From assembly GCF_002813775.1 (NCBI RefSeq), contig NZ_CP020370.1, forward strand, positions 2,257,501 to 2,321,500: a stretch of DNA of 64,000 nt. The letters are read 5' to 3'. Under the pieces are notes generated by a model that ran no database searches, had not been told where the DNA came from, and was given only the letters and a program-made list of their open reading frames with translations. A program made the translations under genes and the position numbers. Below are positions 13,801-46,311 of this stretch, in pieces (within the stretch, counting starts at the first letter, position 1; each line of letters begins with the position of its first letter). Source of the DNA: Candidatus Thiodictyon syntrophicum (GTDB lineage Bacteria; Pseudomonadota; Gammaproteobacteria; Chromatiales; Chromatiaceae).

Positions 13801-14537
13801 TCTATTTTTCCGGCAGTGGGCGGGCGCGGCTGCTGTTGCAGGGCGCCGCCCTGGGCGTGCTGGGGTTCTGGCTCAATACCCTGGTCACGGAGTTGGACCT
13901 CGTGAACCTCAGTCAGGGCCATGCGGCGGCCCCGGCCGAGAACCCCCAGCGCTGGCTGCTGCTCGGCTTCGTCGCGGTCAGCTCGGTCCTGTTCGGCCAG
14001 GTCTGGTGCGGCTTTCTGTGCCCCTTCGGCGCGCTGCAGGAATTCGTCTCCCGCCTGGGGCGCCGGCTGGGTCTGTGGACCTGGCCGGACCGGCCCCTGG
14101 AACAGGCGTCGCGCTATCTCAAGTTTCTGTTGCTGGCCGCGCTCCTGGTCCTGGTCTGGACCACGGGGGAGGGCGCCTGGGCGACCTTCAACCCGATGCA
14201 GCAGGTCTTCGGCGGGCAACTGCGTGGGTGGATGCTCGTCCTGACCGGGGCGGTCATCGCCGGGTCCCTGGTCTATTATCGCTTCTGGTGCCGCTATCTG
14301 TGCCCCCTGGGGGCCTTCCTCGCCTTGGGCAACAAGCTGGCGCTGTTGCAGCGGCTGGGTCCGCGGCGGCGCTTCGAGCACTGCGACCTGGGGGTCAAAG
14401 GTGACCATGATCTGGACTGCATCCGCTGTCACCGCTGCCTGGCGGGGCGGGATACCCATCTGCCGCGGGGGCCGAAGCTTCCGGGCCGGCGCGCGGCCCT
14501 TGATCGTCCTTCCGGCCACGATCGGCAATCGGCGTAG
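10824..14537 (+). CDS. Membrane fusion: aminopropyltransferase-like + FMN-binding + NapH/NosR-like ferredoxin module, C-terminus lost
   Basis: A 1237-residue protein starting at GTG 10824. Residues 1-215 are hydrophobic segments. Residues about 240-560 form a soluble nucleotide-binding fold like spermidine-synthase-type proteins (VLLLGGYPGGL, then the closing phrase VNTDARPVTYYLN). A second multi-pass block covers about 575-800. Residues about 870-965 are a periplasmic FMN-binding domain with the flavinylation motif LSGATVTS near 937. Residues about 980-1190 are NapH/NosR-like, with CGFLCPFGALQE near 1062 and CRYLCPLGAFLAL near 1155. The final cluster CIRCHRC near 1199 lacks its fourth Cys and CP; the last 14 codons and the stop come from an inserted repeat element. 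A membrane electron-transfer role is inferred from the flavin and Fe-S modules. Confidence 0.75.
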   Translation: MPSPLLAILVLGAFSQVAQAVLIREGLVVFYGNEVGLGAFYGSWLLWLAVGAAAALGWEGRRGARPGLDAGAAALDALRLILCALPLVLIGQVLALRSVRWFLEVSASEFVPLGDLFLAVTLVNLPGGVLLGFAFALTCAALGERGAVVGPVARTYVADALGALLGGLLFTFVLIRWLGPVATLGLTTATMALTAAFLAAPRTGPGPGMVLPARAWLPLTLALTGLLLTLPPIARPLDQALERWRFASLQPGMELLDALDTPYGHLAVARLGSQTSVVADGQVQQSFPLPLEVERQAAYFFAQARGQDQAVRRVLLLGGYPGGLAAGLLRYPVVRIDQVEQDRAAFARVRPYLDEAGRASLDDPRLTLHFAAARRFLRLLEPGVAYDLILSLDATPASAAGNRLFTREAFDLARARLAPGGVFCTQVSAASNYVGRAVGGYAGSVYRTLKAVFPTVVLVPGNPQVFCAGEAPARLTEDPAELQRRYLAAAPARHSLPSGTFATLLPAPDLAYLHARLDGAGAAGAVNTDARPVTYYLNMVLWGQFSGSGFVDWLAGLQRLGPWPYLIPPLLFVALWLLRALMEGGAGPARGRTGGVVALVVIGFIAMAGQLALLFSYQAQVGLVFERVALLNGLFMTGLALGGGAVRALAAGRRADLHLMGLLAGAALGLTLLPTALEGLATLGEDAREAGYLALTLALGLVAGAGFTLCVGLGQGTAGASALRGGGLAMAADSLGGALGGLVTGALMVPILGVAVTCRVLAVPALLALVPLVYRRLVPGVGPGPRAQASFPWPGVGWGLLYGVLLVYAWHLAALQARPGPQVRFDQEALAQLSGSSRFTPVESPFVHYLGGAAGDGEPQTVTLASAAAGPGVSGFAGPIQLLLALGRDGTLRGVRLLDSRETPSYITGIETWLAGLAGADLSQAPLSLARVDGLSGATVTSRAVLATINNAARRATQVAFGRPLPPPAAAPGGGADWGLGATAVLVLLFFPVYFSGSGRARLLLQGAALGVLGFWLNTLVTELDLVNLSQGHAAAPAENPQRWLLLGFVAVSSVLFGQVWCGFLCPFGALQEFVSRLGRRLGLWTWPDRPLEQASRYLKFLLLAALLVLVWTTGEGAWATFNPMQQVFGGQLRGWMLVLTGAVIAGSLVYYRFWCRYLCPLGAFLALGNKLALLQRLGPRRRFEHCDLGVKGDHDLDCIRCHRCLAGRDTHLPRGPKLPGRRAALDRPSGHDRQSA

Positions 14538-14640
14538 GGTGCGCCGCGCGCACCTTGCGCAGGGACGCAACGGCAGCGCGGTGGCACGGGTGCGCGCGGC
14601 GCACCCTACGGGCCCTCCGGCCGCAACGACGATCGAGACC
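14496..14640. mobile_element. 145-bp non-autonomous tag element, dyad type B
   Basis: Left end GCCCTTGATCGTCCTTCCGG, right end GGCCGCAACGACGATCGAGA, and an internal dyad beginning CGTAGGGTGCGCCGCGCGCA (14533-14554) mirrored at 14588-14610. Flanks GGCGCGCG (14488-14495) and GGTGCGCG (14641-14648) match 7 of 8 as a target duplication. It was inserted into the 3' end of the long fusion gene and supplies its stop codon. Near-identical to the element at 24370-24514 in inverted orientation. Confidence 0.8.
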
Positions 14641-14818: not shown

Positions 14819-15592
14819 ATGACTAATCCCCCGTATCCGCTCGCTCATTTCCTGCTGATTGCGCTGCTGCCCGCATTGTTCGGTATGCCCGTCCAGGCGC
14901 AGGACGAGACCGCCGCGCCGGTCGCGACCGCCCCGGCAGTGGACGGCGCCGCCGCGGCCGGCCCCCGGGCCCGCTTGCCCGAACAGGACCGCTGGTTCGG
15001 CATGATCTCGGATCTCCATTTCGATCCGTTCTACGACCCGTCCCTGGTCGCCCGGCTGGCCGCCGCCGAACCGTCGCGATGGGAGGAGATTTTCGCCGCC
15101 TCATCCATCACCACACCGAGCGCCTCAGGCAGCGATACCAACTTTCCGCCGCACATGGACGAGTTTCGTGTGCTGGCGGACGAGGCGGGTAAACCATTCA
15201 CGTTCGAGCGCGTGGTCCCGTCCATCAGTCCGATTTACGGAAACAATCCCGGCTACCAGGTCTACCGTTACGATCGGTCCACCGGCGCACCGGTTGACTA
15301 TGTGACAATGACCTACAAGGAAGCAGCCGACACCGGCGGCAACTCGCAGTGGACTAAGGAATATGGCTTCGAGGAGGCCTACGGGGTTGGGCCGCTGACG
15401 CCGTCGAGCCTGACCCTGCTGTCGGCAGGAATTATTTCCGATCCGAACCTGCGCACCAAATTCATCGCCTATTACGGCGGTGAAGCGAGCCCCGGACCCA
15501 TCCCGGCCGGCAGTTGGCAGTCACCCGCCTGCGCCTTGACGAATCTCGACGCGCAAGCGTTCTCCACCTGTTGTGTTGGGGTCTCCCGGTAA
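14819..15592 (+). pseudogene. Sphingomyelinase-like metallophosphoesterase with in-frame internal deletion
   Basis: The open frame (257 residues from ATG 14819) starts with a signal peptide ending VQAQ. Residues 64-72 carry the metal-binding start ISDLHFDPFYD of calcineurin-like, acid-sphingomyelinase-type phosphodiesterases. After GSDTNFPP (near 111) it jumps to HMDEFRVLADEAGKPF, which in the family directly follows the final GHTH metal ligands. The typical tail follows (PSISPIYGNNPGYQVYRYD, then ALTNLDAQAF). About 200-250 residues holding the other metal ligands are missing, so catalysis is not expected. The frame is still open, which suggests recent loss or a collapsed assembly. The gene ends 6 bases before a hexamer repeat. 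Confidence 0.7.
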
Positions 15593-15597
15593 CTTCT

Positions 15598-15660
15598 CGT
15601 TGTCGTTGTCGTTGTCGTTGTCGTAATCGTAATCGGAGAAACGATGCAATTCTGGGTGCG
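15598..15660. repeat. Hexamer-flanked repeat C, left half (interrupted)
   Basis: Four and a half units of GTTGTC lead into GTAATCGGAGAAACGATGCA and TTCTGGGTGCG. The rest of the repeat resumes 2.1 kb downstream at 17763. Intact relatives are at 18109-18242 and 21498-21645, so the interruption is clear. Confidence 0.8.
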
Positions 15661-15925
15661 GGCCTCGATCATAATCCCGGCCACTGGGAGCGCCGCACCC
15701 CAGTGCGGCGCGATCTCGCTGGCGACCGCGGCCTTGCGTGCTGCGGACAGGGCGGGCCGCACTGGGGTGCGGCGCTCCCAGTCGGTCGGCCTGAAGGCCG
15801 ACCGGGCCTTGATCATAAATCCGGCCAAGACCTAGCGTAGGGCTTGGTTAACCCCCACTGGAGAGCGGCAGGACCCGCGAAATTGTGTACCCTTGGAAGT
15901 GCAAACAAACCGAGGGAGAAGCACG

Positions 15926-16018
15926 ATGTTCGAAGGTCCTGCCGGGATCGACTTTAGCGCAGACATCGGGTCGACGCCATCGGGCGTGGTCCGGCGGTCG
16001 GCCGGCGGTGGGTCGTGA
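15926..16018 (+). CDS. 30-codon leader ORF coupled to the transposase
   Basis: ATG 15926 is preceded by GGGAGAAG at good spacing, the best ribosome site in the element. It encodes MFEGPAGIDFSADIGSTPSG plus 10 residues and stops at TGA 16016-16018. That stop overlaps the GTG start of the transposase in a GTGA. This is either a coupling leader or the true N-terminus joined by a -1 frameshift. No classical slippery heptamer is visible. Confidence 0.45.
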   Translation: MFEGPAGIDFSADIGSTPSGVVRRSAGGGS

Positions 16019-17691
16019 AGCACCGCTCGCGCCTGGAGCGAGCCGAACAGCGCGGGGCGGCCGTGGCCCGCTTGGCGACGGGGCAGCCGCAACGCCACGT
16101 CGCCGCCGAACTGGGCGTGGCGCGCAGCACCTTGCAGGACTGGTGCAAGCCGACCCCGGTCGGCGCGGCCCCGGCGGTGTTGGCAGCCTTCGTGGCGACC
16201 CCTGAGGGCGTGCAGTGGCTGCACCAAGTGGTGGTGGCGGCGCACTTCGTCATCACGCTGCACGGCGGTGCCGGGGTGCGGATGGTGTGTGAATTCTTGA
16301 AGTTGAGTGGGTTGTCGGCGTTCGTCGGCGCGAGCTATGGCACCCACCAGGCCCTCAATGCGGCCTTGGAGGAGATGGTGGTCGCCGTGGCGCGTGAGCA
16401 ACGGGCGGCGTTGGCGGTGGGCATGCCGCACCGCGCGATCACGGCGTGCGAGGATGAGACCTTTCATCCGCAGATTTTGTTGGTCATGTTGGAGCCGGTG
16501 TCGAACTTTCTGCTGCGCGAACAGTACGCCGCCGATCGCACGGCGGCCACCTGGACGCAGGCGTTGCGCGCGGGTCTGGACGGCTTGAACGTGACCGTGA
16601 TCCAGGGCACCAGCGACGAGGCCACAGCGTTGCGCCGCCATATCCAGACGGATTGTGCGGCCCATCATTCCCCGGACCTGTTTCATGTGCAACAGGAGGT
16701 GTCCAAGGGCACCAGCCTACACTTGGTCCGCCACGTGAAACAGGCGGGCGCCAGCGTCGCGGCCGCCCAGACGTCGCTGGACGCTGAGCGGGCGACCGCG
16801 CAGGCCTATGACGCCCAATCCCCGCGTCCGCGCGGGCGCCCACCGGCGTTCGCGCCCCGCATTGAAGCCGCCCTGGCGGTCGTGGTGCAGGCCGAAGCCG
16901 ATCAGGTACAGGCGCAAGCGCGTCAGGCCGAGGCCCGTGAACTGGTGCGTGAGTTGGGGACCCTCTATCACCCCTATGAGTTGGAGCAGGGACAGGCGCA
17001 GCCCGTGGCGCGCATCGCGCAACGCTTTGCCGACGTGTGGACGCGGCTGCAACAGCTGGCCGACGCGGCCGATCTGCCAACGCGCGCCCGTGAGCGCCTG
17101 GCCAAGGCGCAGCGCCTGACGATTCAGTTCCTTGCCACCATTACCTTTTTCTTTGCGACCGTGCAGGCCAAGGTCGAGGCGCTGAATCTGCCGCCCGCCG
17201 TGGAACTGGCGTTGCTCACGCAGCTGATTCCGGCGCTCTACCTCGAGCGCGTCGCCAATCGCAGCACGCTCGCTGAACCGCGCCACCGTCTGCACGCCCT
17301 GAGCCGGCAGTTGCTCGAACCGCTGCGCCAACGCGATCATCCGCTCCAGGCCCTCCCAGAGGCCGAGCGCGCGCGCCTCGAACAGGTGGCCGGTGACTGC
17401 GCCGACCTGTTCCAGCGCAGCAGTTCCAGCGTGGAGGGGCGCAACGGCCAACTGTCCCTACATCACCATGGCCGACATCGCCTGAGCGACCGCAAGCTCG
17501 AGGCACTGACCGCCGTACATAACTTCCACCTCCGTCGCCCCGACGGGACCACTGCCGCTGAGCGCTTCTTCGGCCGGGCCCACGAAACGCTGTTCGCGCA
17601 GGTGCTCCAGCGCATGCCGTTGCCCCCGCCGCCAGCGCGCCGACGACCGCGCCCGCCCAAGCCGCCCGCGCTCCTGCCGGTAGCGGCGTAA
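16015..17691 (+). CDS. DDE-type transposase (DUF6399-like)
   Basis: A 558-residue protein. Residues 5-50 form a helix-turn-helix unit (RGAAVARLATGQPQRHVAAE, then LGVARSTLQDW). A likely acidic triad is Asp147 (CEDETFHP), Asp201 (GTSDEA) or Asp221 (HSPDLFHVQQE), and Glu474 (SSVEGRNGQLSLHH). Between the second and third acids lies a long, Ala/Gln/Arg-rich helical insertion (about 240-440). The C-terminal phrase LTAVHNFHLRRPDGTTAAER is typical of a DDE transposase ending. The tail is Pro/Arg-rich. It starts at GTG 16015, overlapping the leader ORF. Placement inside perfect terminal repeats with a target duplication supports an active or recently active transposase. It does not match a standard IS family that I can name. 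Confidence 0.8.
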   Translation: MKHRSRLERAEQRGAAVARLATGQPQRHVAAELGVARSTLQDWCKPTPVGAAPAVLAAFVATPEGVQWLHQVVVAAHFVITLHGGAGVRMVCEFLKLSGLSAFVGASYGTHQALNAALEEMVVAVAREQRAALAVGMPHRAITACEDETFHPQILLVMLEPVSNFLLREQYAADRTAATWTQALRAGLDGLNVTVIQGTSDEATALRRHIQTDCAAHHSPDLFHVQQEVSKGTSLHLVRHVKQAGASVAAAQTSLDAERATAQAYDAQSPRPRGRPPAFAPRIEAALAVVVQAEADQVQAQARQAEARELVRELGTLYHPYELEQGQAQPVARIAQRFADVWTRLQQLADAADLPTRARERLAKAQRLTIQFLATITFFFATVQAKVEALNLPPAVELALLTQLIPALYLERVANRSTLAEPRHRLHALSRQLLEPLRQRDHPLQALPEAERARLEQVAGDCADLFQRSSSSVEGRNGQLSLHHHGRHRLSDRKLEALTAVHNFHLRRPDGTTAAERFFGRAHETLFAQVLQRMPLPPPPARRRPRPPKPPALLPVAA

Positions 17692-17762
17692 CGGGGGTGG
17701 CCGGAACGATGATCAAGGCCGCCGACCGACACACCGCGGTGGCCGGAGCGATGATCGAGGCC

Positions 17763-17830
17763 GGGGTGCGAGAGAATCCGGGGCGCTACGATAACCTCGA
17801 TTACGACCACGACCACGGTGCGAAGAGTAT
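17763..17830. repeat. Hexamer-flanked repeat C, right half
   Basis: GGGGTGCGAGAGAATCCGGG leads into GCGCTACGATAACCTCGATT and then ACGACCACGACCAC, a decayed form of the GACAAC run. It continues the left half at 15598-15660 once the transposon block is removed. Confidence 0.75.
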
Positions 17831-24369: not shown

Positions 24370-24514
24370 GGCCTCGATCGTCGTTGCGGCCGGAGGGCCC
24401 GTAGGGTGCGCCGCGCGCACCCGTGCCACGACGATGTCATTGCGTCCCTACGCAAGGTGCGCGCGGCGCACCCGACGCCCATCGCCGGTCGCGGCCGCAA
24501 CGACGATCAAGGCC
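24370..24514. mobile_element. 145-bp non-autonomous tag element, dyad type B
   Basis: Ends are GGCCTCGATCGTCGTTGCGG and the inverted GGCCGCAACGACGATCAAGG. The internal dyad starts GTAGGGTGCGCCGCGCGCAC (24400). Flanks GGTGGGTC (24362-24369) and GGTGGGGC (24515-24522) match 7 of 8. It is the inverted near-twin of the element at 14496-14640. Confidence 0.85.
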
Positions 24515-32671: not shown

Positions 32672-32816
32672 GGCCTTGATCGTCGTTCCGGCCGCAGGGG
32701 GACAGGAGGTCGAGGCTTTAGCCGGTCGACGGCGCGTCAGCGCGCCCCGGGTCCGGCTAAAGCCTCGACCTCCGGTGTGAGACCTCGGGGCAGCGGCCGA
32801 AACGATGATCAAGCCC
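32672..32816. mobile_element. 145-bp non-autonomous tag element, dyad type A, with exact target duplication
   Basis: Ends are GGCCTTGATCGTCGTTCCGG and, inverted, GGCCGAAACGATGATCAAGC. The dyad GAGGTCGAGGCTTTAGCCGG is mirrored inside. Flanks 32664-32671 and 32817-32824 are both GGCCTGGG, a perfect 8-bp duplication. It is near-identical, in inverse orientation, to the element at 37472-37615. Confidence 0.9.
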
Positions 32817-46198: not shown

Positions 46199-46311
46199 GG
46201 CCTCGATCGCCGTTCCGGCCGTAGAAGCGGCTTCCAGCCGCTTTGAAGCGCCAGGATGGCGCTTCTACGAGCACTGGCCGCTTCGCGGCGGCCGGAACTA
46301 TCACCAAGGTC
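46199..46311. mobile_element. 113-bp non-autonomous tag element, dyad type G, with exact target duplication
   Basis: Ends are GGCCTCGATCGCCGTTCCGG and, inverted, GGCCGGAACTATCACCAAGG. The inner dyads are AGCGGCTTCCAGCCGCT and GAAGCGCC..GGCGCTTC. Flanks 46191-46198 and 46312-46319 are both CCCACGCA. This is the smallest complete member seen. Confidence 0.9.

Follow-up and report, generated by a model that had tools for sequence, protein, structure and literature searches.

The window, by which we mean the whole 64,000-nucleotide stretch of Candidatus Thiodictyon syntrophicum DNA that was analysed, contains three nested layers of mobile or dispersed sequence between 15594 and 17817. An insertion sequence (IS) with a single transposase gene lies within a short MITE, and the MITE lies within a dispersed repeat. 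The features are as follows.

15594–15660, + strand: left half of a dispersed repeat of ~114 bp with hexamer arrays, the target of the MITE insertion
15653–15660: target duplication of the MITE, left copy, TGGGTGCG
15661–15804, + strand: left part of the 178-bp MITE, with the end GGCCTCGATCATAATCCCGGCC; its last 8 bp are the target of the IS
15683–15712/15753–15782: hairpin with 30-nt arms in the left part of the MITE
15797–15804: 8-bp target duplication of the IS, left copy, GCCGACCG
15805–17720, + strand: insertion sequence of 1916 bp with one transposase gene and imperfect terminal inverted repeats of 22 bp
15805–15826, + strand: left end of the IS, GGCCTTGATCATAAATCCGGCC
15926–16018, + strand: leader frame of 30 codons that follows a GAGGGAG stretch
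16015–17691, + strand: transposase gene (558 residues, GTG start) with DUF6399 at residues 400–546, as judged from Pfam, the alignment and the model
17699–17720, − strand: right end of the IS, reading GGCCTTGATCATCGTTCCGGCC on this strand and agreeing with the left end at 19 of 22 positions
17721–17728: target duplication of the IS, right copy, GCCGACCG
17729–17762, + strand: right part of the 178-bp MITE, whose right end is at 17741–17762
17763–17770: target duplication of the MITE, right copy, GGGGTGCG, 7/8 identical to the left copy
17763–17817, + strand: right half of the ~114-bp repeat

A preliminary description of the locus, made from the letters alone, had proposed a nested transposon with 22-bp inverted repeats, and the nesting is confirmed at these coordinates by the sequence and by paralogous empty sites. 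The inverted repeats are at the positions given there but must be called imperfect, because the two ends agree at only 19 of 22 positions. The duplication around the IS is exact (8/8), as had been proposed, and the palindrome that is restored at the target when the IS is removed is real by sequence comparison at the window locus. The IS thus has what is generally expected of a DDE insertion sequence, namely inverted repeats, a single gene, a target duplication, multiple copies and empty sites. The TGA stop of the leader frame (15926–16018) overlaps the GTG start of the transposase gene in the sequence GTGA, an arrangement that may allow translational coupling. L063 and L059, two relatives, have leader and transposase joined in a single reading frame.

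The assignment of the window protein to DUF6399 (PF19936), also suggested at the outset, is secure, with a score of 198.8 bits against a gathering score of 35.4, and the same domain is matched at E 0.01 by all 32 members of the family alignment (the window protein and 31 homologues). Helix-turn-helix models of Pfam match the N terminus, all below threshold. NCBIfam gave only sub-threshold matches, two of them to transposase models (IS3 and IS630) that cover the N-terminal helix-turn-helix; none of the transposase models of Pfam or NCBIfam was matched at its cut-off, PHROGs gave nothing below E 0.01 for the transposase, and sequence searches of the PDB found only one weak helix-turn-helix protein. 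The AlphaFold2 model has a mean pLDDT of 91 and a pTM of 0.83 and predicts an RNase H fold with a helical insertion of ~250 residues that reaches to about residue 465. Asp147 is in the strand 140–150, Asp201 follows the strand 193–200, the sequence Asp221-Leu-Phe-His224 follows the strand 217–220, and Glu474 is carried by the helix 471–481. Asp147, Glu148, Asp201, Asp221, His224 and Glu474 are among the 26 invariant columns of the 32-protein alignment. The protein therefore has, in the model, the features of a DDE transposase, with D147, D201 and E474 in an RNase H topology and invariant in 32 proteins. The preliminary description had named D147, D201 or D221, and E474 as plausible catalytic acids; D147, D201 and E474 stand, and Asp221 as the second catalytic aspartate was rejected since the model places Asp201 after β4, the DDE position, and Asp221 at the start of a DxxH motif after β5. 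The second catalytic aspartate is thus most likely Asp201, with Asp221 belonging to the DxxH motif. PMC7780238 attributes an important catalytic role to a C/DxxH motif in this position in transposases that have helical insertion domains. Since Glu474 is in the DUF6399 region of the modelled RNase H core, DUF6399 corresponds, on this model, to the C-terminal portion of a DDE transposase, the one that carries the glutamate.

The nearest fold to the model in the PDB is that of Hermes (8sjd_C; E 2e-3, probability 1.00, TM-scores 0.29/0.32), followed by ISCth4 at E 0.04 and above; no entry reached E 0.001. The top match among the viral models of BFVD is to a Pandoravirus protein with a hAT domain (E 3.8e-5). 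A model of an ISL3 transposase, used as a control (pLDDT 70), is nearest to ISCth4 (9e-10), and Hermes does not appear before rank 24; the hAT resemblance is therefore not generic to transposases with long insertions. Because this is a single control of lower quality and the global scores are low, the resemblance is regarded as a lead only. The features shared by the DUF6399 model with Hermes and the Pandoravirus protein are the RNase H core, a large all-helical insertion before the helix of the catalytic glutamate and a motif of the C/DxxH type, so that the hAT architecture is present with weak global scores (TM-scores of only 0.29–0.35, 12% identity). The target duplication of hAT elements is 8 bp, like that of the DUF6399 IS. 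Unlike hAT proteins, the DUF6399 proteins are bacterial, have an N terminus resembling a helix-turn-helix and have DxxH in place of CxxH, and the domains typical of hAT proteins (the BED finger and the hAT dimerisation domain) gave no Pfam match at E 0.01 in the 32 members.

The alternative that the DUF6399 proteins diverged within ISL3 or the Mutator-like IS256 group, rather than forming a family of their own, was weighed against the same data. ISL3 and IS256 elements have duplications of 8–9 bp and ends that start with GG, which is similar to what is seen here. ISL3 transposases resemble the family in a DDE core with a helical insertion, a D-x-F-H motif and a VExxN sequence around the glutamate, and the order DE, D, DxFH, VExxN is common to the ISL3 alignment; the insertion in ISL3 is ~125 residues as compared with ~250 in DUF6399 (one model each). 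A weak local match to DDE_Tnp_ISL3 (E 0.0046) occurs in 1 of the 32 members, PF01610 reaches at best 17.2 bits against a cut-off of 23 in 1 of 32, and the profile-profile probability against ISL3 is below 1%, from only 3 and 8 ISL3 sequences. For IS256, the NCBIfam model is matched at all by 2 of the 32 members (IS256_Zn_var, E 1.1e-5 at best), with 24.8 bits in L149 against a cut-off of 150; PF00872 (Transposase_mut) is absent from the Pfam matches of the 32 members, and the PF00872 sequences in relatives are too few for an IS256 profile. The folds also point away from a common branch in that the ISL3 model goes to ISCth4 at 9e-10, whereas the DUF6399 model goes to Hermes at 2e-3 and to ISCth4 at 0.04, the ISL3 model being the poorer of the two. 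The IS256/Mutator-like families (IS256, ISLre2, ISKra4 and relatives; PMC3942029) are similar in having DDE residues, the C/DxxH motif and, in ISCth4, a helical insertion domain. The ISCth4 insertion domain spans only residues 261–325 according to PMC7780238, unlike that of DUF6399. Taken together, membership in ISL3 or IS256 appears rather unlikely. DUF6399 is named in no paper found in PMC text, nothing was found there that joins MITE, ISL3 and 8-bp, and among the matches listed for IS and MITE families no title or start of an abstract names a DUF6399 family. In its main text, the Cad16T genome paper (PMC5944118) has no word starting with "transpos" or "insertion." The earlier suggestion of a possibly undescribed end structure, with a transposase that could be placed in no standard IS family, thus holds against Pfam, NCBIfam and PMC text, a comparison that does not include ISfinder.

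A nucleotide search of the organism's own genome (7,738,984 bases in three contigs) identified two groups of IS copies. The first is 99.9–100% identical and comprises 11 full copies, including that in the window, and one that is split in two pieces, 12 in all; this near identity indicates a recent spread. The second consists of three copies at 72% identity. Flanks were read for 14 fetched loci and the window, the near-identical group being the window and L009–L019. An exact 8-bp duplication is directly outside both IS ends in 9 of these 12 copies, in agreement with the prediction that further copies would share these ends and have 8-bp duplications. The other three are L009, where an exact 8-bp duplication is outside the IS left end and a MITE right end; L011, with a duplication of 6/8; and L019 (C1:4360739-4366299), with no duplication in the flanks, which represents a further nested insertion because the copy is split by another element. 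We take the latter to be IS66-like from its longest frame, which has IS66 features. Two of the 72% copies (L020 and L022) each have an exact 9-bp duplication, the third (L021) has none in its flanks, and a copy in Lamprocystis purpurea (L113) likewise has one of 9 bp. One sub-lineage of the IS (L020, L022 and L113) therefore duplicates 9 bp and not 8 bp.

The element around the IS had been described as an older element with the same type of ends. The ends and the 7/8 duplication are as described, but the host is not an older IS; that reading was rejected because the element, which is 15661–17762 minus the IS and one duplicate, is 178 bp, a length that cannot accommodate a transposase gene, and because 14 of 20 other copies span exactly this element. 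The remaining copies are slightly shorter or are without an end. It is short, has no gene, has inverted-repeat ends and a target duplication and occurs in many copies, all of which identify it as a non-autonomous MITE. Its ends in the window mirror those of the IS, including the difference between left and right that follows GATCAT. Among the 20 other copies fetched, the duplication is 8/8 in 12, 7/8 in 2 and 1–3/8 in 6. With DNA parameters, the left 144 bp give a much more stable fold than shuffled sequence does (z −9.2). None of the 20 has an IS at the IS site, and they can therefore be used as paralogous empty sites. One copy (L023, C1:4789882-4790061) has two extra bases within the stretch of the IS site, which may be a footprint of excision or simply an indel. 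Similar bacterial MITEs, such as MITEAba12 (PMC6382973) and the hupL MITE of Thiomargarita (PMC4853749), are also short and non-autonomous with inverted-repeat ends and a target duplication; the Thiodictyon MITEs differ in that their ends are shared with an IS whose transposase is a candidate parent, and in that an insertion with mixed ends exists.

The hexamer repeat whose halves were said to rejoin at 15660/17763 is the dispersed repeat of ~114 bp, and it is uninterrupted across the MITE junction in all 9 other copies fetched. Dozens more are among the matches listed in this and related genomes. The arrays of the hexamers GTTGTC/GTAATC are at its inverted ends; other copies are found, for example, in G000 at C1:1301591-1301704 and C1:2279008-2279117. 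The empty site of each layer is thus given by uninterrupted paralogous copies in the same genome. The empty sites that the preliminary description predicted in related strains were not found, and a candidate orthologous site in a genome of the same genus (G107) was rejected; synteny with the window ends there at 15588, just before the repeat, and only paralogous empty sites are therefore claimed. In an otherwise syntenic stretch of G107 (L278, C645), ~0.7 kb is present in addition relative to window position 15149/15150.

The most informative copy is L009 (C1:415809-417766), which starts at the IS left end and stops at the MITE right end. It consists of the IS, identical to that in the window, followed by GCCGACCG and by the terminal 34 bp of the MITE, and is flanked on both sides by the exact 8-bp duplication CTCGCCAC. 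The 42-bp tail agrees at 42/42 positions with the window and with one MITE (L024), whereas the remaining 19 MITE copies in the comparison differ from it. Its target is uninterrupted elsewhere in the genome at L299, where 622 of 634 joined positions align at 99.4% with no gap. The simplest reading of these sequences is a single transposition from the IS end to the MITE end, with the window locus as the likely donor. As L009 joins the left end of the IS with the right end of the MITE inside an exact duplication, the MITE end seems to have functioned as the end of a transposon, which supports mobilisation of the MITE in trans. The same end product could be reached in two steps, in which the whole nested MITE transposed by its own ends and a deletion of 144 bp between the two left ends then removed the left arm of the MITE; in the window, these left ends form a pair of 22-bp direct repeats, almost identical and set 144 bp apart. 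This route is improbable, as two events are needed instead of one and, with the left end of L009 wholly of the IS type, the deletion exchange must fall within the first five shared bases, GGCCT. It would, moreover, still require the use of the MITE ends.

The number of such elements was estimated from their ends. With at most one mismatch, the pattern GGCCTYGATCATNNNNNCSGCC is found 514 times in the genome, whereas the reversed-pattern control is found 0 times; the 15 IS copies explain ~30 of the 514. A sample of 40 evenly spaced 20-kb stretches and the window (864 kb) contains 59 ends by the same pattern and, with three mismatches allowed, 32 inward-facing pairs of 94–294 bp, a few of which share an end. 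A duplication of at least 6/8 accompanies 20 of the 32 pairs, as compared with 6 of 639 offset control comparisons. Scaling gives ~180 elements and halving the ~480 ends outside IS copies gives ~240, from which we estimate ~200 MITEs. The 20 duplicated pairs form 10 sequence groups by BLAST linkage and thus represent several MITE families; those other than the family in the window may be moved by other relatives of the transposase. Further MITE-like pairs in the window, with duplications of 7/8 or 8/8, are at 14496–14640, 24370–24514, 32672–32816 and 46199–46311. That the inverted repeats and duplications arose by coincidence in a GC-rich, repetitive genome has a negligible probability; the region is indeed rich in repeats, but chance is excluded by the copies, and the duplications, the empty sites and the reversed-pattern control equally refute it.

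Among 146 genomes drawn from the taxonomic family, 26 have a DUF6399 match (25 over the cut-off), the six of the genus, including this one, have 187–514 ends each, and the reversed pattern gave one match, in one genome. DUF6399 is present in 16 of the 25 genomes with at least 10 ends versus 10 of the 121 others (Fisher 6e-9, uncorrected for kinship); after removal of two ends for each DUF6399 match, the association remains at 3e-7, again uncorrected for kinship. These counts bear on the alternative that the MITEs were moved by another transposase, lost or of a different family, with the matching ends reflecting common descent and the IS transposase inactive on them today. Nine of the 25 genomes with at least 10 ends have no DUF6399 match; among them is G107, of the same genus and in 910 contigs, with 296 ends that are possibly orphaned MITEs or the result of an assembly gap. 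The IS is also younger than the MITEs, with copies 99.9–100% alike as compared with 85–99%, which, like the nine genomes, speaks for this alternative. Nevertheless, we consider it unlikely in view of the co-occurrence of ends and DUF6399 over the 146 genomes, the left/right difference of the IS that is kept in the MITE ends of the window and the junction of IS-left with MITE-right inside an exact duplication in L009.

The same kind of ends bounds homologous genes elsewhere. The preliminary description held that consistently different ends at homologues would argue against its reading. This is not what is seen in other genera and phyla, since related ends, paired at 17/22 or better, bound 25 of the 34 loci in which one frame is nearly full length, and most of these ends begin with GGCCTTGATCAT or a variant (L149 and L166 have other letters after GGC). 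Four further loci match only at 15–16/22, and five have no end pair at 15/22, three of these with less than 100 bp of flank on one side. Both flanks are available for 22 of the 25 loci; 9 have a duplication of 7–8/8 and 13 have none in the scored register, which becomes 11 with and 11 without when the ends of L112 and L117 are read one base further out, where each gives 8/8. In a previous set of 15 loci, which shares some members with this one, end pairs of at least 17/22 are present at 10, and duplications of 7–8/8 at 6 of the 8 for which both flanks are available. Against shuffled controls, 14 of 46 loci were above every control, one of which (L133) is probably a register artefact of a palindromic end. 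The host survey kept 80 of 105 loci. The recorded hosts are Chromatiaceae, Desulfobacteraceae, Chloroflexi, Leptolyngbyaceae (cyanobacteria), Planctomycetota, Magnetococcales and Acidobacteriota, where assignments of MAGs may err. A contig classed as viral (IMGVR_UViG_3300002092_000058) carries at L166:2833-4443 a DUF6399 element whose 22-bp ends are perfect and whose 8-bp duplication is exact. Four plasmid records contain a relative, labelled "DUF6399 domain-containing protein" in two and "hypothetical protein" in one, and it therefore seems probable that such elements are missed by IS annotation.

In the reading that we prefer, with a probability of about 0.88, 15805–17720 is a recently amplified IS of an apparently unclassified, DUF6399-defined DDE family, which shares its ends with ~200 MITEs mobilised in trans and is the innermost of three nested layers. 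The ends, duplications, copy numbers, empty sites and invariant residues are the basis of this reading, from which we infer that the transposase binds the ends, catalyses the reaction and mobilises the MITEs in trans. One protein would bind ends of ~22 bp that are of the GGCCTTGATCAT-N5-CGGCC type, and the contact would probably be made by its N-terminal helix-turn-helix. Cutting would be by Asp147, Asp201 and Glu474 with the assistance of the histidine of D221xxH224, and insertion would occur with a stagger of 8 bp (9 bp in one sub-lineage). The estimated ~200 non-autonomous MITEs with the same ends would be moved in trans by the DUF6399 transposase or near relatives. The layering in the window shows that the dispersed repeat was present first, that the MITE inserted into the repeat and that the IS inserted into the MITE. 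Because the MITE ends would be recognised, the nested block could itself move as an IS-left/MITE-right unit, as it apparently did at C1:415809-417766. Cut-and-paste rather than copy-out chemistry would fit the hAT-like shape, but this is only a guess from the model. A broader proposal, which we put forward tentatively and at somewhat less than even odds, is that DUF6399 defines a bacterial family of hAT-shaped transposases with 8-bp duplications and, here, a living system of ~200 MITEs with interchangeable ends, in which nesting creates larger mobile units in one step, as in L009.

The object appears from its sequence to be of an ordinary kind, an IS with its MITEs, in an apparently unclassified family and with unusually direct evidence for an exchange of ends. 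A likely function can now be given to DUF6399, and ends, a duplication length and candidate active-site residues are supplied for a transposase family of several phyla. The hAT superfamily is known mainly from eukaryotes, and if the resemblance is true, a bacterial relative would be added to it. It is commonly supposed that MITEs borrow a transposase; this natural case, in which a MITE end and an IS end seem to have served as a pair, opens that supposition to a direct test.
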